Assembly (NCBI RefSeq): GCF_007748175.1
Contig: NZ_CP037422.1
Location: 7,151,952-7,215,951 of the forward strand
DNA: 64,000 bases
DNA from: Gimesia aquarii
GTDB taxonomy: Bacteria > Planctomycetota > Planctomycetia > Planctomycetales > Planctomycetaceae
Direction: 5' to 3'
Within the stretch, counting starts at the first letter, position 1, and every line of letters begins with the position of its first letter. The notes beneath the pieces were generated by a model. That model saw only the letters and a list, made by a program, of their open reading frames with translations. It was not told the origin of the DNA and searched no databases. The position numbers and the translations under genes are program-made. Below, piece after piece: positions 46,840 through 64,000 of this stretch.

Positions 46840-48790
46840 GCAAGTGACAGTGATCTCAAAATCGCTTGACGGTGTTAGAAAGCACGGTCTATCGTACAGA
46901 CTGCGCGCGTCGCGGTCGGGTCTATCCCTGGTTTTGGTGATGTTTACTTTAAGTATGTCGTTGGTTTTGACTTACTCTTTTATTCAAACCCAAAGTATTC
47001 TCACACAAATCTCTGAAAATGGCTCAAAGCGTGATCTGGCGATGAATGCCGCTCGCGCTGGTATGACTGATGCACTTAACCGGATGAACTCGCTTGACTG
47101 GGCAGGAGTCCGTGATCAGTATCAACGTACTTTTCAATCTGATTCTGATGGAAGCAGCACTTATACCGTCTCGTTTGCTGCGTCTGGTAATACTCTCGAT
47201 TCTGTTTTGGAACTTGAAGTTCATTCTCTGGGAGTGTGGACGTCTGCGACAAATAATAACATGCGGTCTGAATACCAAATCACAGCGAAAGTGAAACTGG
47301 TACCCCGATTGGCTGGAAGAACAATACTGCCGGGAGATTCTGCTGACGCGAACGATTCAATTCCGAATGCCGGCCACTTCGATCTCATTACACAATACGC
47401 TCTGTTTGCAGAACGCGGTTCGAATTCACTCATCCTCGATCCCTGTGATCGGATTGACGGGAATCTCTGGCTAGATGACCGATTGAATATGTATGACGAT
47501 CCAGCATGGAGTTCGTCCATCCGTAGTACGTTCATGCAGGACCTGGGAAATCGGTTCGTGACATTTCCCGCTGGTTCAACAAATGTTTCTGATGCGACAG
47601 TTCATTATCCTCATCCCATCGCAGGAAATATTACGTTTTATGAAACACCCTCTTCTTCAGTTCGGAACGATCTTTCCAATCTCAAAGTAAGCTGGTCAAC
47701 CACTGATCAAGCATTGACTATTCCCAGTCCGGACTATTCTCATTTTTCCACCTACCGACTCTATGCTGGTGGCCCGGAATATCAGGCTGTTGCACTTGGT
47801 TCCTCATTATATAACGTGACTTTAGGCCCCACTCCAGATAATCCGCTGGGAATCTTTTACCGGAGTGGCAGTCTCTATGTTTATGACAATGTCATTGTGC
47901 AGGGAACACTCGTCTCTACATCCAGAATCACTTTTTCTGGAAAAGGGATTTACATCACTGCCTTCAACTGGAAAGGTATGGATGGCACACCAATCATCGC
48001 AGACTCAGATCTCTGGCCTCGAATTCCTACACTGGTAGCTGACAAGATTGATTTTGAAAGAGAAACACAAACCACAATTGAAGGTGCCGTTGTCTGCCAC
48101 GACGATTTAGATGGGGGCGGAGGTTCTGTCGCTTATCCGGATGCTTCTGATATTCAATTCACGGGAACTGCAACCGTAAGTTCGATAGAACAACCTCACA
48201 GTATTGTCTCACTTCGTGAAAATCAGTTCCTCGGAAATTTGACCGCTGATGGAAACTATGCCATCTGGCTAAGCACATCGGGGTCAGGAAATACGGGAAC
48301 AACAGGTACATGGTACCCAATCGTCGGTATTGATAATCAAAATCAGCAATTAACGATTCGAGGTGAAATCAATCATGTGGCACCAACCGGTTATCGAATC
48401 AGGCTACATAAACAAGAACTTTCACAAATACGTGGCCCTGTCTGTGCAGAAAGGTTTAACTTTAGGCGCTTGAACGAATGGGTTTTGTCTTCTTCGCTTT
48501 GGAATAATAGAGCATATTTCTGGGACTTGGAAAATCAACTCAGAGTTATTTTAGGATATTCGCTGATTGGATTCAGCGAATGGCTCGAAATTCCGCTGAA
48601 TTACCCTGGTTGGGATTCCTATTATCAACAGTACGGATTGAACCTCGAACCCACACTGCACATTCAACATCTGGTAGACCATGAATACCGATGGGAACCA
48701 CCGTTATTTCAACCATATGACGGAGGAGAAGCTAATGCCGACTATTCCGGATACCGCTGGTCACTGATTGATTGGAGTGAATCTCCCTAG
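46823..48790 (+). CDS. Large GspK/PilX-like minor pseudopilin component
   Basis: Start at ATG 46823 with GAGGTATT upstream; the frame could extend to TTG 46802. The 655-residue product has a hydrophobic helix after G33 (LSLVLVMFTLSMSLVLTY) that lacks the +5 Glu, as GspK and PilX do. The next helix contains RDLAMNAARAGMTDALNRMN, as in PilX. The remainder is large and beta-rich, with repeated VYDNVIVQGTLVSTSRITF and FERETQTTIEGAVV segments. Usual PilX is about 200 residues and GspK about 320, so this is unusually long. It may cap the pilus tip or bind a substrate. Confidence 0.72.
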   Translation: MRIHHEQVTVISKSLDGVRKHGLSYRLRASRSGLSLVLVMFTLSMSLVLTYSFIQTQSILTQISENGSKRDLAMNAARAGMTDALNRMNSLDWAGVRDQYQRTFQSDSDGSSTYTVSFAASGNTLDSVLELEVHSLGVWTSATNNNMRSEYQITAKVKLVPRLAGRTILPGDSADANDSIPNAGHFDLITQYALFAERGSNSLILDPCDRIDGNLWLDDRLNMYDDPAWSSSIRSTFMQDLGNRFVTFPAGSTNVSDATVHYPHPIAGNITFYETPSSSVRNDLSNLKVSWSTTDQALTIPSPDYSHFSTYRLYAGGPEYQAVALGSSLYNVTLGPTPDNPLGIFYRSGSLYVYDNVIVQGTLVSTSRITFSGKGIYITAFNWKGMDGTPIIADSDLWPRIPTLVADKIDFERETQTTIEGAVVCHDDLDGGGGSVAYPDASDIQFTGTATVSSIEQPHSIVSLRENQFLGNLTADGNYAIWLSTSGSGNTGTTGTWYPIVGIDNQNQQLTIRGEINHVAPTGYRIRLHKQELSQIRGPVCAERFNFRRLNEWVLSSSLWNNRAYFWDLENQLRVILGYSLIGFSEWLEIPLNYPGWDSYYQQYGLNLEPTLHIQHLVDHEYRWEPPLFQPYDGGEANADYSGYRWSLIDWSESP

Positions 48791-48808
48791 AACACTAAAT
48801 AAAATCTT

Positions 48809-49456
48809 ATGCAGAAGTTTCATCAGAATGAATATCAATGGCAGAAATACTCGCCTGCCTCAATGAGCAAAAGGCAGGCGAACTTGCTGCGCGCAAATCA
48901 ATGTTATTCTTCAGAAAGAGCCGCCTTTACGCTGGTGGAACTACTAATCGTCATCATGTTGATCTCGATTCTTCTCTCTGTCGCTCTCGTTTCCACAGAA
49001 ACCAGTCCGTCGCATTCACTGGAAACGACTGCCCGTGCAGTGGCCGCCGATTTGCGTCTGGCACGCAGTTATGCCATTAAATTTAACTCGGAATACACGG
49101 TCAGATTTAGTTTGGATTCACAATCATATGAAATCCAACATACGGGATCTGGTAATCTGCCTGTTCCGCAAGATCATCTGGCAGGTACAGCCGCTGCATC
49201 TGATAAATATATCAAACAATTTCAAATACAATCTATGAATCTGCCAGACCAGGTTTCTCTCAGACAAGTCCAACTAAAAACATCAGAAACTAATGTGAGT
49301 GACCTTGCATTTGGACCTCAGGGAGGCACAGGGCCAGGTCGAAATGAAGATACAGTTCTTATACTGTCAACAGTCAGAAATGGAACTACTTTTTATATTC
49401 CGATTACGATTTCCTGGATCACCGGGCAAGCATGGATTGAAGACATACAAATATAA
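48809..49456 (+). CDS. Pseudopilin, GspH-like
   Basis: The 215-residue product has a 39-residue leader and then FTLVELLIVIMLISILLSVALVS, with the cleavage after A39 and Glu at 44. A GspH/FimT domain follows: SHSLETTARAVAADLRLARSYAIKFNSEYTVRFSL. The end, WITGQAWIEDI, resembles GspH C-termini. It lies 18 nt after the GspK/PilX-like gene and 38 nt before pilM. It would be a minor pseudopilin. The long leader, also seen in the GspJ-like protein, is unusual. Confidence 0.84.
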   Translation: MQKFHQNEYQWQKYSPASMSKRQANLLRANQCYSSERAAFTLVELLIVIMLISILLSVALVSTETSPSHSLETTARAVAADLRLARSYAIKFNSEYTVRFSLDSQSYEIQHTGSGNLPVPQDHLAGTAAASDKYIKQFQIQSMNLPDQVSLRQVQLKTSETNVSDLAFGPQGGTGPGRNEDTVLILSTVRNGTTFYIPITISWITGQAWIEDIQI

Positions 49457-49494
49457 ACGAATTAATCGAGCCAAATTAACTCTGAGAAAATATC

Positions 49495-50568
49495 ATGATC
49501 TCTATACAACGTTCACAACACAGTCCGATTGGCTTACAACTGGGCCCCAGTTCTGCCACTTTGGTTCAATTAGCGGGATCGCGCCAAAACCGTGTCGTCC
49601 ATGCCATCGCTCAAGAACAATTCGAATTAGATGAAAAACAGTCGATCGAGGAGCGAGATGCAAACATTGCCGCCCAGATACGTCAGATTTTATCTGACCA
49701 TCATTTTAAAGGGCGTCACGTGATCAGTTGCCTGGGGTCGCAGGAACTATTTATCCAAAACGTCAGACTGCCTCAATTACCTGTAGATGAAATTGCCAAA
49801 GTTGTGGCATGGGAAGCAGAGGAGCGACTGCCTTATCCGTTAGCAGAAGCAGAGTTGCGTCATTTGCCAGCCGGTCAAGTTCGACAAGAATCAAATACCA
49901 AACAGGAAGTCATTCTTCTAGCATGTCATACTGGAATCCTGAAACGACATCTGGACCTGTTAGAACAAGCCGGTTTGACAGCAGTCGCCATTGATGTAGA
50001 ACCATCAGCAACACTCCGATGCTTTCATAATTCTTCAAACGACGTGCAAACGAATGCAACCAATTGTTATCTCAATTTTGGAGATGCCGCCACAACTGTG
50101 ATTTTTGCGGATCAGCAAAACGTATTATTTCTGAAATACATTATGCAAGGCAGCAACCACCTCGACCATGCTGTTGCAGAAAATCTTGACCTGCCATTGA
50201 AAGAAGCAATTCGCCTTCGAAAGATCGTTACCAATTCACCAACATTAGATGCCAGCGATGAATTGCACCGCTCGGTTATCGACTCGATTCGTTCCATTTT
50301 GGAAACGATCAGTACGGAAGTTGAAAACTGCTTACGGTATTACAAAGTTACCTTCCGCGGGAAAAAACTGGATCAGCTTATTGTCACAGGAAATGAATCA
50401 AGTCCGTGGTTGATTGAATTCTTGTCGGATCGTTTAAGTACAGAATGCAAAATGGGCAATCCCTTTGAAAGTCTGAAATGTTGGCCGACATCAACTTCGA
50501 TTTTGGAACGTCCTGGTAGATGGACTACGGCGATGGGATTGGCCATGAAAGAAAAAAGCAATTCATGA
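49495..50568 (+). CDS. pilM: PilM-like cytoplasmic actin-fold component
   Basis: The 357-residue protein is an ASKHA-fold PilM: SPIGLQLGPSSATLVQLAG (10-28), LPQLPVDEIAKVVAWEAEERLPYPL, VILLACHTGILKRHLDLLEQAGLTAVAIDVEPSATLR, and NCYLNFGDAATTVIFADQQNVLFLKYIMQGSNHLDHAVAENL. The last part contains LDQLIVTGNES. In pilus systems PilM binds the N-terminal peptide of PilN and forms a ring around the motor. It is followed at 97 nt by the pilN-like gene. Confidence 0.88.
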   Translation: MISIQRSQHSPIGLQLGPSSATLVQLAGSRQNRVVHAIAQEQFELDEKQSIEERDANIAAQIRQILSDHHFKGRHVISCLGSQELFIQNVRLPQLPVDEIAKVVAWEAEERLPYPLAEAELRHLPAGQVRQESNTKQEVILLACHTGILKRHLDLLEQAGLTAVAIDVEPSATLRCFHNSSNDVQTNATNCYLNFGDAATTVIFADQQNVLFLKYIMQGSNHLDHAVAENLDLPLKEAIRLRKIVTNSPTLDASDELHRSVIDSIRSILETISTEVENCLRYYKVTFRGKKLDQLIVTGNESSPWLIEFLSDRLSTECKMGNPFESLKCWPTSTSILERPGRWTTAMGLAMKEKSNS

Positions 50569-50665
50569 TTTGACCAAATTGAAATAATGCATACCGAAAT
50601 TAACTTTTTTACATAACACCGGACGAAACTGAGATATCCGGAATGAGCCCGCAAAGGGTAAAACC

Positions 50666-51403
50666 ATGATACCTGAAATAGATTTTTTACCAGCAAGTTA
50701 TCGCGAAGTACGAAGACGTCACCGGAATCGAATCTGGCGACGGACTATCGTTCTGATTTTCCTTGTCCTGGTGACTTTGGGAACGGTACGCCAAAGAGAA
50801 ATTCAACATAATCTTCTTACACAAAAAAAAGATCTGGAAGAACGTGCGCGCCTTATGAACGCACAACTGGAAGACCCGGATCAACTCAATCAAAAAATCA
50901 AAATTACTGAGATACGAGCTAACTTGCTTGCCGCTCTTCACCTGGATGAATCACCGGCGCAGTTGTTGTCCATCATCAGCAATACGCTACCAGAGTTTGT
51001 TTCTTTAGACGAATTTCACTTCTCGTTTGAAAAAGTCTTTGTCAAAAAGAAATCAATACCGAATAAAGTTCCCGATAAAAACGTAACCGAAATGATACCT
51101 GCTCTGGTAGATCTGCAAAACTTGAAAGAGCAGCACGCACGAGAGAATTTAGTCATCAACGTACAGGGAATGTCTCCCGATCATCTTTCGATTTCGCATT
51201 ATATGTCAAATCTGGATCAGCTGGGACTATTTCGAGAAATCGATCTTGTTCAATCAAATGAAATGGCTTTTGAAGGTCAACCTATGCGTGTATTCCGCCT
51301 TCGAATGGTCGTGAACGCACCAGGAATGTATGTTCCACAGGTCAATCACCGAAGTACTGCTGGATTGGACCTCTCAATCACAGGAGGATTCAAAAATGAA
51401 TGA
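50666..51403 (+). CDS. pilN: PilN-like inner-membrane alignment protein
   Basis: The 245-residue protein starts with IPEIDFLPASYREVRRRHRNR, a PilN-type N-terminal peptide that PilM binds, followed by one transmembrane helix (TIVLIFLVLVTLGTVRQ, about 28-44) and a coiled coil (HNLLTQKKDLEERARLMNAQLEDPDQL). The rest is periplasmic. The C-terminal part has SISHYMSNLDQLGLFREIDL, like the PilN ferredoxin-like domain. Its end overlaps the pilO-like start by 8 nt. It connects PilM to the periplasmic PilO/P assembly. Confidence 0.82.
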   Translation: MIPEIDFLPASYREVRRRHRNRIWRRTIVLIFLVLVTLGTVRQREIQHNLLTQKKDLEERARLMNAQLEDPDQLNQKIKITEIRANLLAALHLDESPAQLLSIISNTLPEFVSLDEFHFSFEKVFVKKKSIPNKVPDKNVTEMIPALVDLQNLKEQHARENLVINVQGMSPDHLSISHYMSNLDQLGLFREIDLVQSNEMAFEGQPMRVFRLRMVVNAPGMYVPQVNHRSTAGLDLSITGGFKNE

Positions 51404-52004
51404 AAAATTACGTCGCGACAGCTTAATCACAATTATCAGCCTTGCTGTAGTAGTTGCTGTTTTTACTTTTGTTGTCTATCTACCAGGTTTGAAAAATAAA
51501 CAACAACTGCAAAAAGAAATCACAGAGATTCAACAATCAATTAGTGAAATTCCTAAAAAGGTTAAACACCTGGAACAACTTCATCAGCAGTTAAATCAGC
51601 AGCAAGCATTTATTGACAGGCTCACAAAACGAATCCCGTCAGATAGAGATACACACGAAGTATTACAAAGGGTTGCGTTACTTGCCAAACAATCTTCCCT
51701 GACCGTTTCGGAATTAAACCCGGGAGAGTTTGTTGCACAAGAAACGTATCTAAGACAGCCTTTTGTGTTAAATGTTGAAGGCCCTTATAGCGGCCTGGTT
51801 CATTTTTTGAATGGGTTAGACCAAGAGCAACGTTTGTTTACTATTTCAGATGTTTCAATCTCAAAACAAAATGGGGCAAATGAAGGGTCTGTTAAAGGAA
51901 TTGTAGAATTGTCGGTCTACGTATTACGCGATAACCAGACAGATTTTTCGGATTTTACCGAAAACAGGATTAGCAATGCGTTTCTTTCAGCCGATAACAG
52001 ATAA
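51396..52004 (+). CDS. pilO: PilO-like inner-membrane alignment protein
   Basis: ATG at 51396 is chosen because AGGAGGATTCAAAA precedes it and the reading begins at the end of pilN. The 202-residue protein has one transmembrane helix (LITIISLAVVVAVFTFVVYLPG), a coiled coil (NKQQLQKEITEIQQSISEIPKKVKHLEQLHQQLNQQQAFIDRLTKRIP) and a ferredoxin-like domain with LPGL...SLTVSELNPGEFV and YSGLVHFLNGLDQEQRLFTISDVSI. Such proteins dimerise with PilN. A 123-nt gap follows before the PilP-like gene. Confidence 0.82.
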   Translation: MNEKLRRDSLITIISLAVVVAVFTFVVYLPGLKNKQQLQKEITEIQQSISEIPKKVKHLEQLHQQLNQQQAFIDRLTKRIPSDRDTHEVLQRVALLAKQSSLTVSELNPGEFVAQETYLRQPFVLNVEGPYSGLVHFLNGLDQEQRLFTISDVSISKQNGANEGSVKGIVELSVYVLRDNQTDFSDFTENRISNAFLSADNR

Positions 52005-52127
52005 TGACACACTCCGATTCAAGTTCCATCAAATTTCATATCCAAGAAGAAATACGTTCCGAATTTGAAAGTATTTAACGCACTTTAGATCCTGCTAAGT
52101 TCATTTCTTTGAAGTAGTAATCAAACC

Positions 52128-52784
52128 GTGAAATCATTCAGTCAACAATTATTACATGACTTAAAAGTAAGCTGGCAGAAAACATTAGTGTTGTGCCTCT
52201 TATTTTTGGTTGGATTGTATTTCTGGATTCCACCTCTCTATCGTGCAGTCCGCGGGACTTCTGGTGCTGCCATTGTTCCTGAAAAAGTGAAATCTGTCGC
52301 CGTCCCACCGCGCCCTCCCGTCAAAACAGAAATGAGTTTCGCGCAAGATGAAACGGTAGAAGAAGTAAGGCATTCCTGGGAAAAGTTTGATTCATTGATG
52401 CAGTCAGATCCATTAGTTCAATCCCTTCAAATGGGAGCGGTTCAAAAAAATCCCTTCGCCGTCAATCGAGATCAATTTTCTCCACCTATCTTATTTGCGG
52501 AAGAACCTGTTAACGCTAAGAGCGATGCAAAACAACAAGTCAAAAAAGAAGTTTTGGTTCTGCCAAAAGATCTTGTACTAAAGACAACCATCATCGGAAA
52601 AAACCGACGAGCGGCGATTATCAATAACAAGATGCTCTACGAAGGCAAAACATTCGAGCATAAAAACGTGACATACGTACTAGAACGAGTAGCAGCCCGA
52701 AACGTGACTTTAAGACAAGGTGAGCAAAAATTTGAACTAAAAATTCAGAACGATCCTTCAGCATTTATCAAATTTGCACAATAA
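52128..52784 (+). CDS. PilP-like periplasmic linker protein
   Basis: The 218-residue product starts with GTG at 52128. One transmembrane helix (KTLVLCLLFLVGLYFWIPPLYRAV, about 18-41) is followed by a Pro/Glu/Asp-rich linker and a C-terminal beta domain (VLVLPKDLVLKTTIIGKNRRAAIINNKMLYEGKTFEHKNVTYVLERVAARNVTLRQGEQKFEL). That domain resembles the homology region of PilP/GspC that binds secretin N0. The name PilP-like is given by position and shape, not by strong similarity. It is between pilO and the secretin gene. Confidence 0.65.
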   Translation: MKSFSQQLLHDLKVSWQKTLVLCLLFLVGLYFWIPPLYRAVRGTSGAAIVPEKVKSVAVPPRPPVKTEMSFAQDETVEEVRHSWEKFDSLMQSDPLVQSLQMGAVQKNPFAVNRDQFSPPILFAEEPVNAKSDAKQQVKKEVLVLPKDLVLKTTIIGKNRRAAIINNKMLYEGKTFEHKNVTYVLERVAARNVTLRQGEQKFELKIQNDPSAFIKFAQ

Positions 52785-52844
52785 ATAGTTCGTATCACTG
52801 GCCTAATAGTATTGATTCGAACGATCATGGATGATGGTCGAAAC

Positions 52845-55196
52845 ATGAAAAGACAATTTTTTATACCTGCATTTTGGGCAACACTGACTGGGCTATCGCT
52901 GCTATTGATTGCCGCGATGACTGATGTCAAAACCCCTCATGCTCTATTTATTTCACCTCAACATCAGGCGAAAACACAACGCGCTGAGATTGGGTTGGTT
53001 GTCAGCAAAAAGATGGCGTTGCCAGAAGCGGAACCGCAGACATCTGTTTCAAATCTGAATACGAGCACGAAAGCAATTCCACAGCAACAGACTCCGCAAA
53101 CAGCAGCGACACTTCCAGAGACTCAAACGCAAACGGGTTCACTTCAAAAGAAAACACCCCGATCGCGGATTCTGGTTGAACCTGGAATCGAAATTTCCAC
53201 TGCTCCTGAAACTGATGTAAAGCGAGTACGTTCTGTACAATTTAATGTGGCTTCCAATTCAGACCTGAAAACGCGTGAGTCAGAACCTTCCAAAATGGAA
53301 CTGCGTTTGGCTAGTTTGACCAAACAAGTCGATCGGCTCGCGAATCTGCAACTCCAATCTCGTCAACAATCCAACATAGAATTAGCACAAAATACGGACC
53401 GGCTGGAACAGGCAACGAAACTACTTCAACAGATGCAGCAAATGAATCAGTTGCGTGATCTAGAACGCAAGCTGGACAGCATGCAGCAAAAGTCGGAAGC
53501 AAATTCAACTGATGCAGAGAAAAAAACAACTCCGCAGAGCACTGAAGCACCTCAAACGGAACAGTCCGAGGGCACTACTAAAAAAAAGAATCAGCCACTT
53601 CTCAAAGTGAGCCCTAACAATGATTCAAAGGAAACGTTTTCTTTACAAATTCAAGATGCAGAAATTATGCAGGTTCTGGATATGCTTGGGGAACTTTCCG
53701 AAACAAACATTCTAGCGGGGCAGGGCGTGACGGGTACGATTACCGCTAATTTAAAGAACGTCACTCCTGCACAAGCTCTGGATGCGATTTTGCGTTCGCG
53801 CGATTTAACTTCAGAAAAAGAGGGTGAGTTTATTTACGTGATGACACAGGCAGAAATGGAACAGAAAAAAAAGTCCAACCGCAAGGTGATCACGAAATTA
53901 TATACTCCTTTCTATGTGAGCGCTAAAGAATTACAAAACCTGATTACACCTTTATTGACAGAAAATGTCGGGCTTGTTTCATTAACTACTCCCAGTGAAA
54001 TTGGTATCTCGCCCGATGCAACGCAAGCTGGCGGTGACTCATTTGCACAGAATGACTCCATTGTTGTTCGCGATTATCCTGAAATCATAGAAGAAGTTGA
54101 CCATTTACTGGAAAAAATGGACGTACCTCCAATGCAAGTCGTCATCGAAGCCATGATCATCAGTGTGCTGCTTACAGATGACATGCGATTCGGCGTGAAC
54201 TTTGCGATGTTGGGAGATAATGGTCGAAGCTTGCTTGTAGATGGCAACGGTCAGACCTTAAACAACTCCAGTGGTTTTCCAGGCTCTGGTGCGAGTTCAA
54301 TTGTTCCACCGACAGGACAGTTTATTGCAGACGTCGCTGGCCTGAAATACGGATTTTTGCGCGGTGATATTAGTGGATTCATCGAAGCCCTGGAAGACAT
54401 TACCGAAACGAACCTGATCGCATCACCTCAGCTACGTGCTTTAAACAAACAGAAAGCCGAATTGATCATCGGCGATCGAATCAGTTATTCCACCATCACA
54501 CAAAATGGAAATACCTCGATTCAGAATGTCAACTTTCTGGACTCGGGTATTGTTCTCAACATGCGTCCCTTTATTACCCCCGATGGACAAATTCGCATGG
54601 AAATTCATCCGGAACGAAGTACTGCTACAATCAGTGAGGTAACGGACCTGCCGGATTTACAAACAACAGAGGTTACTACCAATGTCATGGTTCGCGATGG
54701 CCATACCGTAGTCATCGGTGGTTTGATCGAAGAACGAGCCAATAATACAAAAAATCAGGTCCCTTTTTTAGGGGCGATTCCTGTGATTGGCAATGCATTT
54801 CGTCTTCAACGGGAAACACTCAGACGTACGGAACTGATTATTCTGATTACTCCCCGCATCATACATGCTGAGGCAGCTCGGGCTGAGGGAGAAACACTAG
54901 AGTACGAGGCAGCAGAACGCATCGCAGCGTTTAAAGAAAACTTTCTGCCCATCAATCAGGTACGCATTGTTCAATCACACATCAAGCAAGCCAAAAAATA
55001 TCTGAGAATCGGCAACTTGCCTAAAGCAAAGTTGCACATCAATACTGCAGTTCGCCTCGATAAGAACAATATCGAAGCGATTCAATTACAAAAATACATC
55101 AAAGAAGCATTGAAAAATCGAAATCGAAGCCTGATTGGTCTACCCCCTACACAAGCGACAGAAGTACATATTCCTTCGCTGGAAGGAGATCCTTAA
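52845..55196 (+). CDS. Secretin (GspD/PilQ-like) with C-terminal helical extension
   Basis: ATG 52845 gives a signal-like N-terminus (MKRQFFIPAFWATLTGLSLLLIAAM); TTG 52812 or ATG 52827 could add up to 11 residues. After a coiled-coil linker rich in Gln (about 130-260), an N-domain (FSLQIQDAEIMQVLDMLGELSETNILAG..., STN-like) and then the secretin ring domain follow: VVIEAMIISVLLTDDMRFGVNF, ALNKQKAELIIGDRISY, VTTNVMVRDGHTVVIGGLIEE, PFLGAIPVIGNAFR and ELIILITPRII. The last 110 residues are a helical, TPR-like extension (YLRIGNLPKAKLHINTAVRLDKNNIEAIQLQKYI). It forms the outer-membrane pore. Confidence 0.9.
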   Translation: MKRQFFIPAFWATLTGLSLLLIAAMTDVKTPHALFISPQHQAKTQRAEIGLVVSKKMALPEAEPQTSVSNLNTSTKAIPQQQTPQTAATLPETQTQTGSLQKKTPRSRILVEPGIEISTAPETDVKRVRSVQFNVASNSDLKTRESEPSKMELRLASLTKQVDRLANLQLQSRQQSNIELAQNTDRLEQATKLLQQMQQMNQLRDLERKLDSMQQKSEANSTDAEKKTTPQSTEAPQTEQSEGTTKKKNQPLLKVSPNNDSKETFSLQIQDAEIMQVLDMLGELSETNILAGQGVTGTITANLKNVTPAQALDAILRSRDLTSEKEGEFIYVMTQAEMEQKKKSNRKVITKLYTPFYVSAKELQNLITPLLTENVGLVSLTTPSEIGISPDATQAGGDSFAQNDSIVVRDYPEIIEEVDHLLEKMDVPPMQVVIEAMIISVLLTDDMRFGVNFAMLGDNGRSLLVDGNGQTLNNSSGFPGSGASSIVPPTGQFIADVAGLKYGFLRGDISGFIEALEDITETNLIASPQLRALNKQKAELIIGDRISYSTITQNGNTSIQNVNFLDSGIVLNMRPFITPDGQIRMEIHPERSTATISEVTDLPDLQTTEVTTNVMVRDGHTVVIGGLIEERANNTKNQVPFLGAIPVIGNAFRLQRETLRRTELIILITPRIIHAEAARAEGETLEYEAAERIAAFKENFLPINQVRIVQSHIKQAKKYLRIGNLPKAKLHINTAVRLDKNNIEAIQLQKYIKEALKNRNRSLIGLPPTQATEVHIPSLEGDP

Positions 55197-55198
55197 AC

Positions 55199-56260
55199 AT
55201 GGCTTCCAATAACTGTTCCTACTTACGATCTCTGCTTCAACTGTTTTGCTTTGCTCCGCTTCTCTGCTGTGGTTGTCAGCTCGTTCCTTATTCCACTTCG
55301 TCTTCTGTAATGAATCAGGCACCGGAAACTAAGGACTCTCAGCAGGAAAATCTTAACGTAGAAAAAACGAGTGATTCTCCTTTCAATCTGAAGGCAAATG
55401 AGCTCGTCCAGCAGGCGCTTGGTCATTATTCGAATGGTGAATTAAAACAAGCAAAAATTCTTCTGGCATCAGCTCGAGAGATAGACCCCGGTCATATTGG
55501 TACATTCGAAATCGAAGCACAGCTTTCATATGACATGGGAGATCAAAACCAGTTTCTACAGTCATTGCGCGCGATTCGTGCAGCAAGCCCACATGATTCC
55601 GAAAAACAGAGTGCCATCGGAACTCTCTTTTTTCAGGCAGGACGAACCGAGGAAGGTATTTCCTGTCTGAAACGCGCTATTGAATTAAAACCATATAATG
55701 AAGATTATGCTCTCAAATTGGCGGCATTCTATGAACAAACGGGGATGACTGACGAAGCTCAGAATGTACTCTTACGGGCTTTACACACCACGCCGGGCAG
55801 TCGTCGGCTTCCCATTGCTCTAGGTCGCGTTTGTGAAGCAAACCAGCAGTGGGACCAGGCGAGAATCTATTATGCCATGGTTGTAAATCACTTCCCCAAA
55901 AATCATGTCTGGCGGAAGCATTTTGCTCGATGTCTGTACCACTCAGAACATTATTCCGAAGCATTTGAACAATTTTCTCTCTGTCAGAAAAACGATCCAG
56001 AATCACTTTCACTTTCGGAAATGATTGCGTTTGGAGATTCAGCGCTACGCATAGGGAACCTTGAGAAGGCCCAGCACCTTTTTGATCAGATATCCGCTAA
56101 CCATAAAAGTCAATTACTCCACGTGGAAATATTACGAGGATTATGTGCGATAAACCGCGGTCAGAATATCAGTGCAAAAACCATTATCGATACAGCCCGT
56201 ACAAAGTGGCCTACTGACCCCACTCTATTGCAAGTCGCATCCTTGCTGCCCGCTCAATAG
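55199..56260 (+). CDS. TPR-repeat lipoprotein, candidate pilotin or secretin partner
   Basis: The 353-residue product starts two bases after the secretin stop. A hydrophobic N-terminus (SLLQLFCFAPLLCCGC, lipidation probably at Cys26) suggests a lipoprotein, though the lipobox is not canonical at -3. TPR repeats follow: ANELVQQALGHYSNGELKQAKILLASAREIDPGH, SAIGTLFFQAGRTEEGISCLKRAIELKPYNEDYALKLAAFYEQTGMTDEAQNVLLRALHTTPG, and EHYSEAFEQFSLCQKNDPESLSL. Pilotins of the PilF/PilW kind are TPR lipoproteins that place secretins, and the C-terminal extension of the neighbouring secretin has a similar helical character. The role is inferred from position. Confidence 0.78.
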   Translation: MASNNCSYLRSLLQLFCFAPLLCCGCQLVPYSTSSSVMNQAPETKDSQQENLNVEKTSDSPFNLKANELVQQALGHYSNGELKQAKILLASAREIDPGHIGTFEIEAQLSYDMGDQNQFLQSLRAIRAASPHDSEKQSAIGTLFFQAGRTEEGISCLKRAIELKPYNEDYALKLAAFYEQTGMTDEAQNVLLRALHTTPGSRRLPIALGRVCEANQQWDQARIYYAMVVNHFPKNHVWRKHFARCLYHSEHYSEAFEQFSLCQKNDPESLSLSEMIAFGDSALRIGNLEKAQHLFDQISANHKSQLLHVEILRGLCAINRGQNISAKTIIDTARTKWPTDPTLLQVASLLPAQ

Positions 56261-56285
56261 GCGAGCCCCTTGCTTAATGCAAAAC

Positions 56286-56317
56286 ATGAACAAATCAGTA
56301 CTTCTTGATTTGTTCAT
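56286..56317. repeat. Perfect 12-bp inverted repeat after the TPR lipoprotein gene
   Basis: ATGAACAAATCA (56286-56297) and TGATTTGTTCAT (56306-56317) pair perfectly around an 8-nt loop. No T-run follows. It lies 25 nt after the TPR gene stop and 174 nt before the sensor kinase gene. It may end the first transcript or be an operator. Confidence 0.75.
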
Positions 56318-56490
56318 TCCATTCTCGATTACAGAATTGGACAACCTGCATTTTGTAACCTAGATTTAGGTAGTGAGATACCTCCCTCTCTCATCGCTAG
56401 AGGTCTGAAAAGTTATCTCTTGATCTGGAAGACGTTTATGTGTTCTTCGATTTCAGTAGAACGTAAAAACTACTGAGAAAGTAATCGGCA

Positions 56491-57957
56491 ATGAAAAGCT
56501 ATAGTAAATACTGGTTCCTCGTATTGCTGCTGTTAGTAGTGAGCTGCTTAGATAGCCTCTTGATATCTACACAGTTTATGAGCCCGTTATTTGCGCTCGT
56601 AATCTCGCTGATTGCATCGTTAGCCGGTTGGTTCTGGTTGGTCAAAACAATAGAACAAGACCGCGATCAAATCGCTTCCTATTTAAGAAATCCAGACTTA
56701 ATACGCCCAGGCTTCCAGCATAAAAACTTTTTTGGAAATATTTTTGCAGAAGCAATTCAAAAAATCGAGGATTCTGATAACGATTTAGTTTCCACAAAAC
56801 AAGTTAAAACGATGCTCAAGGCCCGTTTGAATACTTCTCTCAAAAAAGAACTTCTAATGGAATCCGTGATCAAACAACTGGATTATGGAATCCTGATTTT
56901 TGACGCGCAACATGAGCTTGAATTTTCAAATCCTGCCGCTGATCCATTTCTGATGGACCAGGATGAGCAAAACCAAAACTATTCAGACTCCAGCTTGTCA
57001 CTCAGCAAAGCACTAATAAATAATGCCATTATTCCCGAGCTAGCCAAACTACTCACAAAGACGATTGAACGTAGAGACGCCACGCTTCGCAGACGAGCAG
57101 AATTCGAACTCGCATCCAATGATATTACCAGTTACTATCGAGCTGTTGCCACTAATCTCTGGGATGAAAATCAGTCAATACTGGGTACAATGATTGTCGT
57201 TGAAAATATTGGTGAAGAACAGAATGAAAAAACGAGACATGCTGAATTTGTGTCCTCAGTAGCGCATGAGTTAAAAACACCGATGTCGGGAATCAAAGCT
57301 TATGTCGAAATGCTTCTGGATGGTGACTGTGATGAACAGGAAGCACAAGAACTATACGGATTTATGAATGATCAGATTGATCGTCTCACGCGATTGGTAA
57401 ACAGCATGCTCAATCTTGCGAGAATTGAAAGTGGCGTCATTGAAATCAAACGACACGATCATGAGTTAAACGATATTTTGAAAACCGCCGCAGATGTAAT
57501 CGCCCCCAATGCAGCAGAAAAAGACATTACATTTATCACAGAATTAAGTGATCTTTATTTACCCGTGCATGTAGACAATGACATGTTAGGTCAGGCGATT
57601 ATCAATCTTTTATCGAACGCAGTTAAATATACACCTAACGGACACGAAGTACGCCTGCGGAGTCGAATGGAAGATGCTTCTGCTGTGATTGAAATTCGCG
57701 ATACAGGGATGGGTATACCGGAAAACTCCTTACCCCATATTTTTGATCGATTCTATAGAGTTCCCGAAAACAATAGTTCGGCAGCCGGGACTGGTTTGGG
57801 GCTGGCATTAGTCCACTTTATTGTTACTAATGTGCACAATGGTTCGATCTCAGTTCAGTCCAAGGTGAATGAAGGGACCTCTTTTAATATTACTATTCCG
57901 CTGGGTCACCAGGAAAAGAAAAAAGTAAGGCAGGTCGCCTCACCAGTGAATGTCTGA
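56491..57957 (+). CDS. Membrane sensor histidine kinase
   Basis: The 488-residue protein has two transmembrane segments (about 7-25 and 31-52) with a short loop, then a PAS-like region (about 120-240: LMESVIKQLDYGILIFDAQHELEFSNPAADPF). HisKA begins FVSSVAHELKTPMSGIKAYVEML with the phospho-accepting H259. HATPase_c has the N box INLLSNAVKYTP (371-382), G1 DTGMGIP (404-410), F box HIFDRFYRV and G2 GTGLGLAL (433-440), so it looks active. It is the first of four signalling genes inside the pilus locus; the response regulator follows after 58 nt. Confidence 0.95.
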   Translation: MKSYSKYWFLVLLLLVVSCLDSLLISTQFMSPLFALVISLIASLAGWFWLVKTIEQDRDQIASYLRNPDLIRPGFQHKNFFGNIFAEAIQKIEDSDNDLVSTKQVKTMLKARLNTSLKKELLMESVIKQLDYGILIFDAQHELEFSNPAADPFLMDQDEQNQNYSDSSLSLSKALINNAIIPELAKLLTKTIERRDATLRRRAEFELASNDITSYYRAVATNLWDENQSILGTMIVVENIGEEQNEKTRHAEFVSSVAHELKTPMSGIKAYVEMLLDGDCDEQEAQELYGFMNDQIDRLTRLVNSMLNLARIESGVIEIKRHDHELNDILKTAADVIAPNAAEKDITFITELSDLYLPVHVDNDMLGQAIINLLSNAVKYTPNGHEVRLRSRMEDASAVIEIRDTGMGIPENSLPHIFDRFYRVPENNSSAAGTGLGLALVHFIVTNVHNGSISVQSKVNEGTSFNITIPLGHQEKKKVRQVASPVNV

Positions 57958-58015
57958 GGAACACAGCTCAAACAAGTTCCAAGTGAAAACAGTTATTTGA
58001 CAAAGAAAGTAAAAA

Positions 58016-58405
58016 ATGGTTCCTCTCATTTATGTTTGTGATGATGATTCACATATTGTTCGAGCAATTTCAATGAAGCTCAAGAAAGCAGGTTTTGAAG
58101 TCGAAGGCTTCCGTGACGGTTTCTGTTGTTGGGAAAAAGTTCAACAACAAGCCCCGGATATGATTATCACCGATTTACAAATGCCGCGTATGAATGGCTT
58201 GGAACTCTGTGGAAAAATTCGCACTTTTCCAAGTACACAAACCATTCCTGTTACGTTATTAACCGGTAAAGGTTTTGAATTCGATCATGATGAATATATG
58301 CAAACATTAAAAATAAATAACGTCATGGTGAAGCCCTTTAGCCCCAAAAAATTATTAACACAAGTCCAAGAAAGCCTCAACATCACTAATGATGTGATTG
58401 CTTAG
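58016..58405 (+). CDS. Single-domain response regulator
   Basis: The 129-residue protein is a CheY-like receiver only: CDDDSH (D9-D11) for the acidic pocket, D53 in IITDLQMPRMNG as phospho-acceptor, T83 in LLTGKG and K106 in VKPFSP. No output domain is present, so it must act by protein contact. Its neighbours suggest it may talk to the kinase upstream and to the diguanylate cyclase or a motor component. The gene lies 36 nt before the GGDEF gene. Confidence 0.94.
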   Translation: MVPLIYVCDDDSHIVRAISMKLKKAGFEVEGFRDGFCCWEKVQQQAPDMIITDLQMPRMNGLELCGKIRTFPSTQTIPVTLLTGKGFEFDHDEYMQTLKINNVMVKPFSPKKLLTQVQESLNITNDVIA

Positions 58406-58441
58406 ACTCCCAACAATATAAACTTACTGAAAATATCTACC

Positions 58442-59944
58442 ATGCGAAATTATTATGCTGCCATCCAGTTCTGGTCCTATGCACTGTTGGTAGTTTGCCT
58501 TTGTCCGCTCGCCGTTTTGCTGGGTACGTACATGGACTGGCCACTTGGTGCAGCTCCGTTGCTACTACTCACGCTACCCACGATTCTGGCAGCAGTGTCT
58601 TCACCTCGGATCTGTTACTGGACGATTACTGTACTAGCTGTTTGCGCCTGTTTTGCTGAAATCCTTTTCAGAACCGATCTCAGTGAAGTTAACACCACTT
58701 ATCTCTTCAGCATCCTGAGCGCTGCTGTACTCGTAGGAATGACGTTATTGATTGATCTCTATATCGGCAAACTGCGAGGGACCATTTCTCAGTTTGATGC
58801 ACAAAACGATGAATTGGTTCGTCGGCTCTATGAATCCCAGAAAGAATCCACATCTAGTTTCGATAACAAAGACTCAGTTTCTGAAACAGAATCAGATGAA
58901 ACTTCTGATACGGACTCTGCAGAGAAGGATGTTAACTATCCGTTATTGTTATTGACACTGCAGGATATTGGCCGACGTATTTCTACCAACCAATCTAATG
59001 AGTCACTGATTCCTACCGTCATCAGCACTGCTAAAGCTTCTTTGCAATGTGAACATTGTCAGGTATATCTATGGGATAGCAAAGTACGTGCTCTGAAAAA
59101 TCCGCTCCCTGCTCGATCGCGTGACAAACTGGATTACCGACCCGATTCAAATCAGGGAGTTGCTGCATGGGTGATCGAGAATCGTCAGATTGTGATGCGA
59201 AACGATGCAGATCAGGACTATCGACTGAAAAGGATCTTGGAAGAAGATCCTCATATGCCGGATGCCATTGCTCCTTTGACAGTTGGTTCAGAATTAATCG
59301 GTTTGCTGATAATCGACAAGGTCGATCTTGACTCTCCTACGATTGGAAGATTGATTTATATTCTTTCGAATATCTATGCCTTGGGTATTAAGAATTCTCA
59401 GTTATTCAAACGCATTGAAGAGATGGCGAGTCGCGATGGTTTAACGGGATTGTTTAATCACGCAACCTTCCAGGAAAAACTGCAACAACTGACAAAAACA
59501 GCGGATGCACAATCGACTACGCTCAGTATCATTATGAGTGACATCGATCATTTTAAATCATTCAATGACACGTTCGGTCATCAGGCAGGAGATTTTGTTT
59601 TAAAAGAAGTAGCCCGTATCTGGAAAACAGTGATGCCGGAAAATGCTATCGTTGCTCGCTATGGTGGTGAGGAATTTATCGGTGTGCTGATTGATCACGA
59701 GTATTCACAGGCAATGCAGATTGCTGAAGACTTACGAGAAACACTGGAAAATTGTCCTATCTTGTTTGAGGGACAACAACTTCAAGTAACAGCCAGCTTT
59801 GGAGTGACTGAATATAAACATCCTGCTTCCAATACCAACGAGTTCGTTCGAATTGCAGACGAATACTTATACAAGGCCAAAGAAAACGGCAGAAATCGAG
59901 TGGTAGGAATGGCTCCAAATTCGACAAGAAAACCTAGTTCATAG
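58442..59944 (+). CDS. Membrane-bound GAF-GGDEF diguanylate cyclase
   Basis: The 500-residue protein has three to four transmembrane segments (about 10-30, 37-53, 58-76, 86-107), an acidic linker (about 138-162), a GAF domain (about 165-320, LTLQDIGRRISTNQSNESLIPTVIS) and a GGDEF domain (RDGLTGLFNHATF at 331-343, SDIDHFKSFNDTFGHQAGD 366-384, RYGGEEF at 406-412). The GGEEF catalytic site looks intact. The feedback I-site RxxD expected at 399-402 reads PENA, so product inhibition is probably absent. It makes c-di-GMP. The response regulator and the STAS gene flank it. Confidence 0.94.
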   Translation: MRNYYAAIQFWSYALLVVCLCPLAVLLGTYMDWPLGAAPLLLLTLPTILAAVSSPRICYWTITVLAVCACFAEILFRTDLSEVNTTYLFSILSAAVLVGMTLLIDLYIGKLRGTISQFDAQNDELVRRLYESQKESTSSFDNKDSVSETESDETSDTDSAEKDVNYPLLLLTLQDIGRRISTNQSNESLIPTVISTAKASLQCEHCQVYLWDSKVRALKNPLPARSRDKLDYRPDSNQGVAAWVIENRQIVMRNDADQDYRLKRILEEDPHMPDAIAPLTVGSELIGLLIIDKVDLDSPTIGRLIYILSNIYALGIKNSQLFKRIEEMASRDGLTGLFNHATFQEKLQQLTKTADAQSTTLSIIMSDIDHFKSFNDTFGHQAGDFVLKEVARIWKTVMPENAIVARYGGEEFIGVLIDHEYSQAMQIAEDLRETLENCPILFEGQQLQVTASFGVTEYKHPASNTNEFVRIADEYLYKAKENGRNRVVGMAPNSTRKPSS

Positions 59945-59955
59945 ACTCAAATACC

Positions 59956-60291
59956 ATGCAGATTACAACAGAAATTTTTGGAACTGTGTTGGTTGCTCAT
60001 ACACCAGACGAATTGACGGATGATACGTCCACAGAATTCGTGAATGCGCTTTCAGAAGCCATAAATGATCAACATTTTCAGGTTGTTCTGCAAATGGATC
60101 GTAGCGAATTGCTAGACAGTGCAGGTTTGACTGCACTACTGGATTTACAAGATTTGACTCGCGAACGAGGTGGAAATCTCAAAATTAGTGGTTTGGAAGA
60201 TCCCGGTAAAAAAATTCTGGAAATGACAAGGCTTGATCAACGATTTGATCTTTTTGACTCAGTAATTGATGCGGTTTCCAGTTTTCAATAA
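59956..60291 (+). CDS. STAS-domain protein (anti-anti-sigma-like)
   Basis: The 111-residue protein is a single STAS domain: [67 protein letters not shown]. Ser55 in LLDSAGL sits where SpoIIAA and RsbV are phosphorylated. STAS proteins normally work with a serine kinase or a membrane partner; no such kinase is seen next to it. It lies 11 nt after the diguanylate cyclase and 17 nt before pilB, so it is almost certainly co-translated. It may relay a signal from the cassette to the motor. Confidence 0.9.
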
Positions 60292-60308
60292 ATAAACTGT
60301 ACCTCGAT

Positions 60309-62057
60309 ATGAATAAAAATTCCTTATTACAGCCTAAAATGCGACTCGGTGATCTACTCATCTATAGAGGGTATATTACTCTAGAACAGTTAGAGTCTGC
60401 GCTTGAGGAGCAAACAAATGGCGATGGAAGTCAGTTATTAGGTGAATTGCTGGTCAATAATGATTATTGCACCGAGGAACAGGTTTTAGAATGTTTGGCC
60501 CTGGAGTTTCGGATTCCTTATGTCCAACTCGATAGCCGGATGTTCGACTCTAAAGTCTTTGATGAACTTCCACGCGAATTTGTGGAAAAACACACGGTAC
60601 TCCCGCTCTTTAAAGTACGAAATGTTCTAACTGTTGCCGTTGCAGAACCAACGAATGTCTTTTTAGTTGATCAACTACGAGATTTAACAAAAGCAGAAAT
60701 TCAAATTGTCGCTGCAAGCGCCAAAGAGATTCGACGTATGGTGCAAACCTATATGCCGAATACGAATGTGTTTGTGATCGATGATATCATCGATGATGCG
60801 AATGGCACCAATGTCGAACTGATTGAAGAATCTATTGATGATATCGGTTTTGATGTTGAATTTGCCGGCCAAAGTCCGATTATCAAACTGGTAAACTACA
60901 TCGTTTACAATGCTGTTCGCGAAGGCGCCAGTGATATTCACATCGAGCCTACTGAGCAGCAATTACGTGTGCGGTATCGAGTGGATGGTGTTCTGCAACA
61001 GGCGCTTGAACCACCAGTGCATTTAGCTCCCGCTGTTTCTTCTCGTATCAAAATCATGGCCAGTCTCGACATCAGTGAACGTCGTCTACCACAAGATGGT
61101 AGAATTCATGTACTCATGGAGGGACGTCCAATAGACTTACGTGTCAGTACGTTACCAATGCCCAATGGTGAAAAAGTCGTTATCCGAATTCTCGACAATC
61201 GGAGTGTCAACATTTCGTTGGAACAATTGGGATTCAGCTCAGAAGTATTAGAAAACTTCACCGAACAATTGGAAAAACCAAATGGGATTATTTTGGTAAC
61301 GGGTCCTACAGGAAGTGGAAAAAGCACCACGTTATATGCTGCTTTAAACGCTGTCAGTTCTATCGAAAAGAATGTATGTACTGTCGAAGATCCAATCGAA
61401 TATCAGCTTCCTGTTATCAATCAATTTCAAGTCAACGAAAAAATCGGGCTTTCATTTGCATCCATTCTGCGGAGCCTGTTACGCCAAGATCCTGATGTGC
61501 TCATGGTTGGTGAAATTCGAGATCAGGAAACGGGCAAAATTGCCATTCAGGCAGCGCTGACCGGTCACTTGGTGTTCAGCACGCTACATACCAACGATGC
61601 CATCTCAGCAATCACGCGCTTAATTAACATGGGTGTTGATGATTATCTAATTGGAGCAGCGGTAAACATGGTTCTTGCACAACGACTTTGTCGGAAAATT
61701 TGCCCCAAATGTAAAACACCATATGAATTACCAAAGTCAATGCAACTTGCTGTTGAGCGTGCCGGACTCGACCAGGGTGAATTTTACAAAGGTAGTGGCT
61801 GCAAACGTTGCCGAAACACAGGATTTTCAGGCAGAATCGGAGTTCATGAACTACTGACGATTGATGATCAACTACGTGAATTAATCACAACAGATCCTAC
61901 GGTGGCTACCGTGAAAGAGTATGCAAAAAACAGCGGCATGATCCCCCTGAGATACGATGCGCTCCGCAAGGCACAAGAAGGACTGACTACGATTGAGGAA
62001 GCACTTAAGGTGAGTGACGAAGCATGGGCTCCTCAAAATTCGTTGATAAATCAATAA
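60309..62057 (+). CDS. pilB: PilB/GspE assembly ATPase with MshEN c-di-GMP-binding-type domain
   Basis: The 582-residue hexameric ATPase drives pilus/pseudopilus assembly. The N-terminus (12-35) is an MshEN motif, [24 protein letters not shown], which fits the RLGxxL...I...L..AL..Q pattern known to bind c-di-GMP; a second, degenerate copy is at 43-66. Walker A is GPTGSGKST (332-340), Walker B LMVGEIRD (about 398-405), the His box is [13 protein letters not shown], and a zinc motif has C465, C468, C498 and C501. ASP box residues SDIHIEP (208-214) are present. The gene follows STAS by 17 nt and PilT by 60. Confidence 0.95.
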
Positions 62058-62117
62058 AAACACTTTTTCTATACGACTGAAACCAAATACTTTAAGGTCT
62101 GAGAAAGCGACTCAAAC

Positions 62118-63188
62118 ATGGAAATAAATGACCTTTTACACGCCGCTGTTGACAGTGATGCCTCAGATATCTTGTTGGTTACTGATGCGCCTCCTATTTT
62201 TCGTATTGATGGAAAGCTGGAAACCACTGCATTGGAACCGCTTGATCCTGAAACGATCCGGGATCTTTGCGATCAGATATTGAAAGACAAACAGAAAGAG
62301 ACACTCGAAAAGCAACAAGATGTCGATTTTGCTATTACGGTTCCACGCTTAGGCCGGTTTCGTTTTAACATTCACGTACAACGTGGTTCATTAGCGGCAG
62401 CCATTCGTCGTTTCTCGAATGAAGTATGTAATTTGAGTAATTTGGAATTACCACCAATCGTCGAAGAGTTAACCCGCTTAAAATCTGGTTTGATTCTGGT
62501 GACAGGCCAAACAGGTTCCGGCAAATCCACAACTCTGGCTGGAATGATTCAAGCCATTAATGAACGGGATTCAAAACATATCATTACGCTGGAAGACCCG
62601 ATCGAATATCAATTTCAGCATAGCAAGTCGCTCATTGAGCAACGCGAAATTGGAGAGGATTGTCCCAATTTTTCTTCTGGACTGAAACATATTCTAAGAC
62701 AAGATCCTGATGTGATTCTGATTGGCGAGTTGCGAGACTTAGATACGATTCGAGTTGCCCTTCAAGCTGCAGAAACCGGACACCTGGTCTTGGCATCGCT
62801 CCACGTTTCCAGTGCCGCTGGAGTTGTTGATCGACTCGTGGAAGTCTTTCCACCGGAAGAACAATCGCAGATTCGCAGTCACCTTGCGGAATCATTACGA
62901 GCGGTGATTACTCAACAACTGTTACCCGCGGCTTTCTCCAAAGGACGGGTTGCCGCAGCAGAAATTATGGTCATTAACCGTGCGATTCAAACGAGCATTC
63001 GCGAATCAACGACTCATCTGATTCCAGGTGTGATTTCCACGAATCGACGTATGGGAATGCAAACCATGGAACAGGCCTTAAAAGATCTGTTATTAAATGG
63101 AAGAGTAGATCCAGAAATCATTGATGAACATTTGCAAGAACTACGTGGTGAATCAATCAAAGAACAATCCCAGGGGTTACTGACTTAA
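62118..63188 (+). CDS. pilT: PilT-family retraction ATPase
   Basis: The 356-residue ATPase lacks the PilB N-terminal domain and zinc insert. Key sites are DASDILLVTDAPPIFRIDGKL (14-34), Walker A GQTGSGKST (130-138), IITLEDPIEYQF, ILRQDPDVILIGELRDLDT (Walker B 199-206), TGHLVLASLHVSSAAGVVDRL and IMVINRAIQTSIRE. Its presence with PilB in one locus argues for a real type IV pilus-like retracting motor, not a strict type II secretion system. It lies 26 nt before pilC. Confidence 0.95.
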   Translation: MEINDLLHAAVDSDASDILLVTDAPPIFRIDGKLETTALEPLDPETIRDLCDQILKDKQKETLEKQQDVDFAITVPRLGRFRFNIHVQRGSLAAAIRRFSNEVCNLSNLELPPIVEELTRLKSGLILVTGQTGSGKSTTLAGMIQAINERDSKHIITLEDPIEYQFQHSKSLIEQREIGEDCPNFSSGLKHILRQDPDVILIGELRDLDTIRVALQAAETGHLVLASLHVSSAAGVVDRLVEVFPPEEQSQIRSHLAESLRAVITQQLLPAAFSKGRVAAAEIMVINRAIQTSIRESTTHLIPGVISTNRRMGMQTMEQALKDLLLNGRVDPEIIDEHLQELRGESIKEQSQGLLT

Positions 63189-63214
63189 AGTAGCGATCTA
63201 TTAAAGGCTGAATC

Positions 63215-64000
63215 ATGCAATTCACTTATATAGCACGAAGCTCAAACGGCCAGAATCAGACTGGTGAATTGGTAGCTGATTCCCGAGATGAAGCAGTGAT
63301 CAAGTTACGCCAGGAAGGTCTCTTTCTGCTCTCTTTAGAAGAATCGGATGAACTTTCCAAAGAAGGCCTTTCAAGTTCGATCAAAAAACGTGTTACACGG
63401 AAAGAAATCATTTATTTTACCAATCAGTTGGCCATCATGGTCGATGCTGGTGTTCCTGTTGCTATGGCACTGGAGGGAATCTCCAAACAGGTCGAAAATC
63501 CGACACTAGGCACTATACTGGAAGAGATCCAGAAAAATGTAGAAGCTGGTAGCGATCTTTCTTCTGCATTAGCTGATTTTCCTCGATACTTTGACCAAAC
63601 ATACGTCAATCTGATCAAGGCCAGCGAAGCCAGTGGAACAATGCCTCAAATGTTGAGCCGTATTGCCACTCAAGCCGAAGAAGAACAGGAAACTATACAA
63701 CAAGTCAAAGGTGCCCTGATCTATCCGGCCATCATGTTGTTGATGTGTATTGGTGTTTGTATTTTTCTATTAACTTATGTTTTTCCCAAGTTGATGCCCA
63801 TGTTTGCGGCACGTGGAGCAGCAGTACCTGCTCCAACAAAAGTCATGATGTTTGTCTCAACTATGATTACCTCTTATTGGTATTTGTTAATACTATTTTT
63901 GGTACTTTTAGGAGTGGCCGCATATTACATTCGGTCAAAAGATTGGGGTAAATCTGCAATTGATTGGACCATTATCCGGTTGCCTGTGTTTGGTACGATG
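63215..64000 (+). CDS. pilC: PilC/GspF inner-membrane platform protein (3' end missing)
   Basis: The ATG at 63215 opens a frame that continues to the right edge, 262 codons, so the protein is truncated by the window. It starts with QFTYIARSSNGQNQTGELVADSRDEAVIKLRQEGLFLLSLEE, then the GspF domain RKEIIYFTNQLAIMVDAGVPVAMALEGISKQVENP and EASGTMPQMLSRIATQAEEEQETIQQVKGALIYPAIMLLMCIGVCIFLLTYVFPKLMPMFAARGA, with the first membrane segments. Usual length is about 400. It is the membrane platform on which PilB works. Confidence 0.94.
   Translation, partial: MQFTYIARSSNGQNQTGELVADSRDEAVIKLRQEGLFLLSLEESDELSKEGLSSSIKKRVTRKEIIYFTNQLAIMVDAGVPVAMALEGISKQVENPTLGTILEEIQKNVEAGSDLSSALADFPRYFDQTYVNLIKASEASGTMPQMLSRIATQAEEEQETIQQVKGALIYPAIMLLMCIGVCIFLLTYVFPKLMPMFAARGAAVPAPTKVMMFVSTMITSYWYLLILFLVLLGVAAYYIRSKDWGKSAIDWTIIRLPVFGTM

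Follow-up and report, generated by a model that had tools for sequence, protein, structure and literature searches.

The gene of a predicted diguanylate cyclase lies two genes upstream of the gene of a PilB ATPase with a candidate c-di-GMP-binding domain in Gimesia aquarii, which raises the question of whether the messenger could be supplied and sensed at one locus to control a pilus motor. The specificity of c-di-GMP signals for one machine is an open question, and here an enzyme, a putative switch protein and a putative receptor are encoded side by side.

Gene content of the PilB locus

The window, i.e., the whole 64,000-nucleotide stretch of G. aquarii DNA analysed here, contains a gene run at positions 45330-64000, all of it on the + strand. 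The run was found to be longer than the earlier note had described, with genes for pilins, PilM/N/O, a secretin, a TPR protein, a histidine kinase (HK) and a receiver (REC) protein upstream, and genes for PilT and PilC downstream. It starts with four minor pilin or pilin-like genes (45330-45929, 45865-46839, 46802-48790 and 48809-49456), three of which match the prepilin N-terminal model TIGR02532; the third gene (46802) has no NCBIfam match, and its place is conserved in related loci. These genes are followed by those for PilM (starting at 49495; TIGR01175, 115.6 bits, slightly below the cut-off of 133), a PilN-like protein (starting at 50666), PilO (starting at 51330; Pfam PilO, 69.6 bits), a T2SSB/PilP-like protein (starting at 52128), the secretin (52812-55196; Pfam Secretin, 150.2 bits) and the TPR protein (55199-56260; TPR models). 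An MSHA-type label for the system was rejected, as TIGR02519 (MshL) and GspD both scored below cut-off on the secretin.

The first gene of what is hereafter called the cassette encodes the HK (56491-57957; HisKA 64.2 bits, HATPase_c 93.8 bits), and is followed by the genes for the stand-alone REC protein (58016-58405; Response_reg, 83 bits), the predicted 500-aa TM-GAF-GGDEF diguanylate cyclase (58442-59944), a STAS protein with a DSAGL serine motif (59956-60291) and the 582-aa PilB extension ATPase (60309-62057; T2SSE, 464.8 bits). The positions of the HK and REC genes are conserved, and so is the STAS gene. Further downstream are the genes for the PilT retraction ATPase (62118-63188; TIGR01420, 425.5 bits, above the cut-off of 319.1) and for the PilC/GspF platform protein (63215-64000), which continues beyond the window and whose complete gene (L007:3167-4372) is matched by the GspF/PilC models. 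The cyclase, STAS and PilB genes occupy the positions given in the earlier note, with the STAS gene alone separating the GGEEF cyclase from PilB. The intergenic gaps are 36 nt between REC and the cyclase, 11 nt between the cyclase and STAS, and 17 nt between STAS and PilB. No terminator-like site was found on the + strand between these genes, so that, judging from this spacing, a single transcript for cyclase, STAS and PilB is plausible. The 7.2-Mb genome holds only 6 GGDEF domains and 5 MshEN matches, from which about 0.03 chance adjacencies of the two would be expected by a rough estimate. The cyclase-PilB adjacency recurs across Gimesia and in several other genera, and the closest named relatives are Gimesia sp.

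The window cyclase carries the active-site string RYGGEEF and was matched by the GGDEF model of Pfam (146.7 bits against a cut-off of 23.8) and by TIGR00254 (168.6 bits), together with a weak GAF match. Its RxxD inhibitory site, directly before RYGGEEF, is replaced by PENA, and the other cyclases of the genus are likewise without RxxD; product inhibition at this site would therefore not be expected. The STAS domain scored 46.3 bits against a Pfam cut-off of 22.6. The anti-sigma-factor antagonist model TIGR00377 stayed below its cut-off (45.3 against 53.45 bits), and the gene is therefore named a STAS protein only. On PilB, the models for type IV-A PilB (TIGR02538; 619 bits, cut-off 675.65) and for GspE (TIGR02533; 600.7 bits, cut-off 630.25) both remained below cut-off, so that the assignment as a pilus motor rests mainly on the adjoining PilT.

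The N-domain of PilB as a candidate receptor

The published MshEN motif, RLGxx(L/V/I)(L/V/I)xxG...LxxxLxxQ, occurs in two copies with a 5-residue spacer (PMC5013675). The first 24-residue stretch of this kind in PilB, motif I (residues 12-35; 60342-60413, + strand), fits all key positions (R12, L13, G14, G21, L28, L32 and Q35), in agreement with the MshEN-type spacing that had been noticed there. The second, motif II (residues 43-66; 60435-60506, + strand), fits the consensus at L43, L44, G45 and L63, and deviates where D52, V59 and E66 stand in place of G, L and Q, i.e., it is a variant with L1, D10, V17 and E24. The spacer between the two is 7 residues, against 5 in the consensus. NF053729, the model of the MshE-related c-di-GMP motif, scored 52.4 bits on residues 12-64, above its curated cut-off of 38, and the C-terminal MshEN subdomain follows at residues 67-148 (60507-60752, + strand; PF05157, 60.2 bits, cut-off 23.1). 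The earlier note had counted two MshEN copies in PilB; instead, both 24-residue motifs jointly form one MshEN domain.

The N-domain was then modelled and compared with solved structures, as that note had suggested. The predicted structure (mean pLDDT 85) had as its best match MshE with c-di-GMP (5htl_A; Z 18.2, 2.2 Å over 140 residues), and the next matches were c-di-GMP-bound structures of PilF GSPII-B, including the Q218E mutant (9glg). The non-binding XpsE and the N-domain of X. citri PilB matched at lower scores (Z about 14). Fold likeness to ligand-bound MshE is insufficient alone as proof of binding.

Motif II had been described as degenerate, and this held in part. The Thermus PilF study (PMC11731258) accepts R, K or L at motif position 1. 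According to it, the KD of PilF is 6 nM and increases to 460 nM, close to the value of MshE, in Q218E, a Gln-to-Glu change at the end of motif II; of the motif II deviations of the window, the parts of the study consulted cover Leu1 and Gln-to-Glu, and not Asp or Val. Since Leu1 falls within this extended consensus and PilF Q218E still binds, the motif II differences do not exclude binding. The term degenerate thus fits the Asp for Gly and the 7-residue spacer, and not Leu1, an accepted variant, or the Gln-to-Glu change, which permits binding in PilF. Taken together, the MshEN domain of PilB is strongly predicted to bind c-di-GMP. A further MshEN ATPase of the same genome (L002; 745254-748514), in which Gln ends both motifs, is a second candidate receptor in the cell.

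Conservation and history of the cassette

For the annotation of 141 planctomycete PilB loci, profiles were derived from the proteins of the window together with relatives of these. A cassette was assigned where a STAS gene precedes PilB together with an HK, a REC or a slot enzyme gene, the slot being the place between REC and STAS. The results revealed the order HK-REC-[slot]-STAS-PilB-(PilT)-PilC in 119/141 loci. As the loci were picked by PilB similarity, neither this proportion nor those of the slot types given below are population frequencies, and as the loci are mutually related, the counts are not independent. HK, REC, STAS, PilB and PilC are the constant parts. The slot holds a GGDEF cyclase in 17 cassettes, a predicted GAF-HD-GYP phosphodiesterase in 67 and both enzymes in 2, so that a predicted c-di-GMP enzyme is present in 86/119, and it is empty in 33. 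A few loci are atypical, either with an altered order (e.g., L189) or truncated by contig ends (L127 and L128). Neither GGDEF nor HD-GYP was found near any of the 22 non-cassette PilB loci on the same strand from 5.5 kb before to 6 kb after (0/22). The same pattern appeared in a named second collection, with a cyclase in Gimesia, an empty slot in Blastopirellula marina DSM 3645, and HD-GYP in the slot of Phycisphaerales and Sedimentisphaerales. In the one scan of contigs, the best matches were nearly all labelled as planctomycetes. PilB of this type is also encoded in two records (L223 and L228) that bear the names Candidatus Kuenenia stuttgartiensis and Candidatus Nealsonbacteria and are possibly mislabelled or mixed MAGs. 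No description of the cassette was found in the open-licence literature searched.

The slot HD-GYP proteins retain the catalytic HDxGK in 66/69 and the GYP motif in 69/69 cases. Pfam detected GAF with GGDEF in two slot cyclases from outside the genus (L076 and L122), and GAF with HD_5 in two slot HD-GYP proteins (L104 and L106). The slot GGDEF protein of one distant lineage (L111:3103-4548) has the degenerate signature RYGGATM and is perhaps inactive. PilT is present in 13/17 cyclase cassettes, 13/67 HD-GYP cassettes and 0/33 empty-slot cassettes; given its absence from the majority of HD-GYP loci and from every empty-slot locus, the machine driven by part of the cassettes may be one that does not retract or one of the secretion type.

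The alignment of the cassette PilBs showed that the key motif residues are near invariant: Gly3 of motif I is kept in 119/119, Gln24 of motif I in 117/119 and Gly3 of motif II in 119/119, and position 1 of motif II is L, R or K in 119/119. For comparison, Gly3 and Gln24 of motif I are present in 6/15 and 8/15 of the PilBs without STAS, and in 1/7 and 1/7 of those with STAS only. Gly10 of motif I (residue 21 of PilB) is Gly in the window and Glu in nine congeners (L064-L072). At position 24 of motif II, Gln has given way to Ala or Gly in the majority of HD-GYP loci, and to Glu or Asp in the majority of loci with a cyclase or an empty slot, which indicates a loss across the whole group and not in the window gene only. 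At E<=0.001, NF053729 matched 54/54 sequences in the alignment of PilB and relatives from the second collection. As it also matched 15/19 controls at this threshold, it was dropped as a discriminator, and the contrast between cassettes and controls rests on the residue counts; the one control PilB with a displayed score had 23.7 bits, below the cut-off. A VFVIDDI stretch after MshEN was likewise rejected as a cassette-specific mark, since the pattern is also present in 12/15 non-cassette PilBs. Gene order, domain identities, binding-residue conservation and the exchange of slot genes are thus direct observations from these loci.

In a tree of 15 slot GGDEF domains and 24 other GGDEFs of the genomes searched, from which two long rows (L111 and L128) were omitted, the slot and non-slot classes required 2 changes, against a shuffled mean of 12.2, and a single clade of slot cyclases was not rejected (p-AU 0.36). 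The clustering includes L121 and L122, which belong to distant families and have both enzyme kinds in their loci. These data are compatible with one origin of the slot cyclases. The tree of 122 PilBs required 11 changes among six locus classes, against a shuffled mean of 55.3. The pattern could be explained by an ancestor whose cassette had both enzymes and by their differential loss in later lineages, and also by a small number of replacements.

Control of the pilus motor and comparison with known systems

We propose that the cassette is probably a c-di-GMP regulatory unit mounted on a type IV pilus assembly locus. HK and REC would take in a signal and, with the STAS switch protein, would control the GAF-containing slot enzyme directly or indirectly, this enzyme being a predicted cyclase in Gimesia and a predicted HD-GYP phosphodiesterase in Phycisphaerae-type relatives. 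The strongly predicted binding of c-di-GMP across both motifs of the PilB MshEN domain may then favour extension over retraction by the adjoining PilT, by analogy with V. cholerae MshE, in which c-di-GMP binding promotes extension and low levels accompany retraction (PMC7096442). Such a putative circuit from c-di-GMP to the pilus motor, already suggested in the earlier note, is well supported on comparative grounds by the curated motif model, the MshE fold match, the near-invariant residues of the 119 cassette PilBs and the enzyme in the slot of 86/119. The role given there to the cyclase stood less well, as the cyclase is not constant and most relatives have HD-GYP or an empty slot. Tentatively, the unit could even be a private circuit in which STAS holds the slot enzyme beside PilB, HK-REC sets its activity, and the phosphodiesterase lineages reverse the logic and keep the sensor.

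A rather doubtful alternative is that PilB reads the cell-wide c-di-GMP pool, with the operon cyclase merely a co-regulated supplier and no private circuit. The 33 empty-slot cassettes retain the motifs, which indicates that a local source is unnecessary for sensing, and five further GGDEF domains are encoded in the genome besides the additional MshEN ATPase mentioned above; however, the enzyme holds the exact REC-STAS position over wide distances, and HD-GYP occupies the same position, so that co-supply alone is inadequate as an explanation of the fixed slot. It is unlikely that HK-REC-STAS acts on PilB mainly by contact, i.e., by partner switching, with c-di-GMP as a minor or lineage-specific input. 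HK, REC and STAS are indeed constant, in the empty-slot loci as well, the STAS serine motif D-S-x-G-L or near variants of it are retained in most loci, and the STAS gene ends a median of 17 nt from PilB, but control purely by protein contact would not require near-invariant MshEN binding residues. Most improbable is a purely structural MshEN domain that lost c-di-GMP binding with motif II Gln24 and Gly10: E66, D52 and V59, the lack of Gln24 in nearly all cassette members and the example of XpsE, which lost binding through altered key residues (PMC5013675), would agree with it, but PilF with the motif II Q-to-E change keeps a KD of 460 nM (PMC11731258) and was crystallised with its ligand (9glg), and motif II Gly3 and Leu2, ligand contacts in MshE, are retained.

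The proposed unit would give planctomycete pili a receptor for c-di-GMP, for which no report was found in the literature searched, and its natural versions with cyclase, phosphodiesterase, both or neither offer a ready comparison set for local signalling.

Among known systems, MshE of the V. cholerae MSHA pilus (5HTL) shares with the window PilB the tandem 24-residue motifs on an extension ATPase, the same fold and a PilT retraction motor. In contrast to MshE, motif II of the window has L, D, V and E for R, G, L and Q, the spacer is 7 instead of 5 residues, and the motor gene lies beside genes for a predicted c-di-GMP enzyme, HK, REC and STAS. GSPII-B of Thermus thermophilus PilF (KD 6 nM) also has Leu at motif II position 1, and its Q218E variant corresponds to the natural motif II Glu of the window. 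On the other side, PilF has three GSPII domains against one MshEN domain in the window PilB, and Lys instead of Arg as the first residue of motif I. In the HptB-HsbR-HsbA-HsbD system of P. aeruginosa, STAS and cyclase act together downstream of a phosphorelay, as would be the case in the proposed window system: the STAS anti-anti-sigma protein HsbA binds the cyclase HsbD more strongly when phospho-mimic, and an effect of HsbD on the assembly of pili was seen in an hptB mutant (PMC5085249). Unlike the window genes, this system is not encoded with PilB and has no MshEN target shown, and no HsbR counterpart was seen at the window locus. Finally, the window system would resemble FimX-PilZ-PilB of Xanthomonas in that c-di-GMP input reaches PilB via its N-domain; FimX binds c-di-GMP and acts through PilZ there, whereas the N-domain of the window PilB itself carries the motif.
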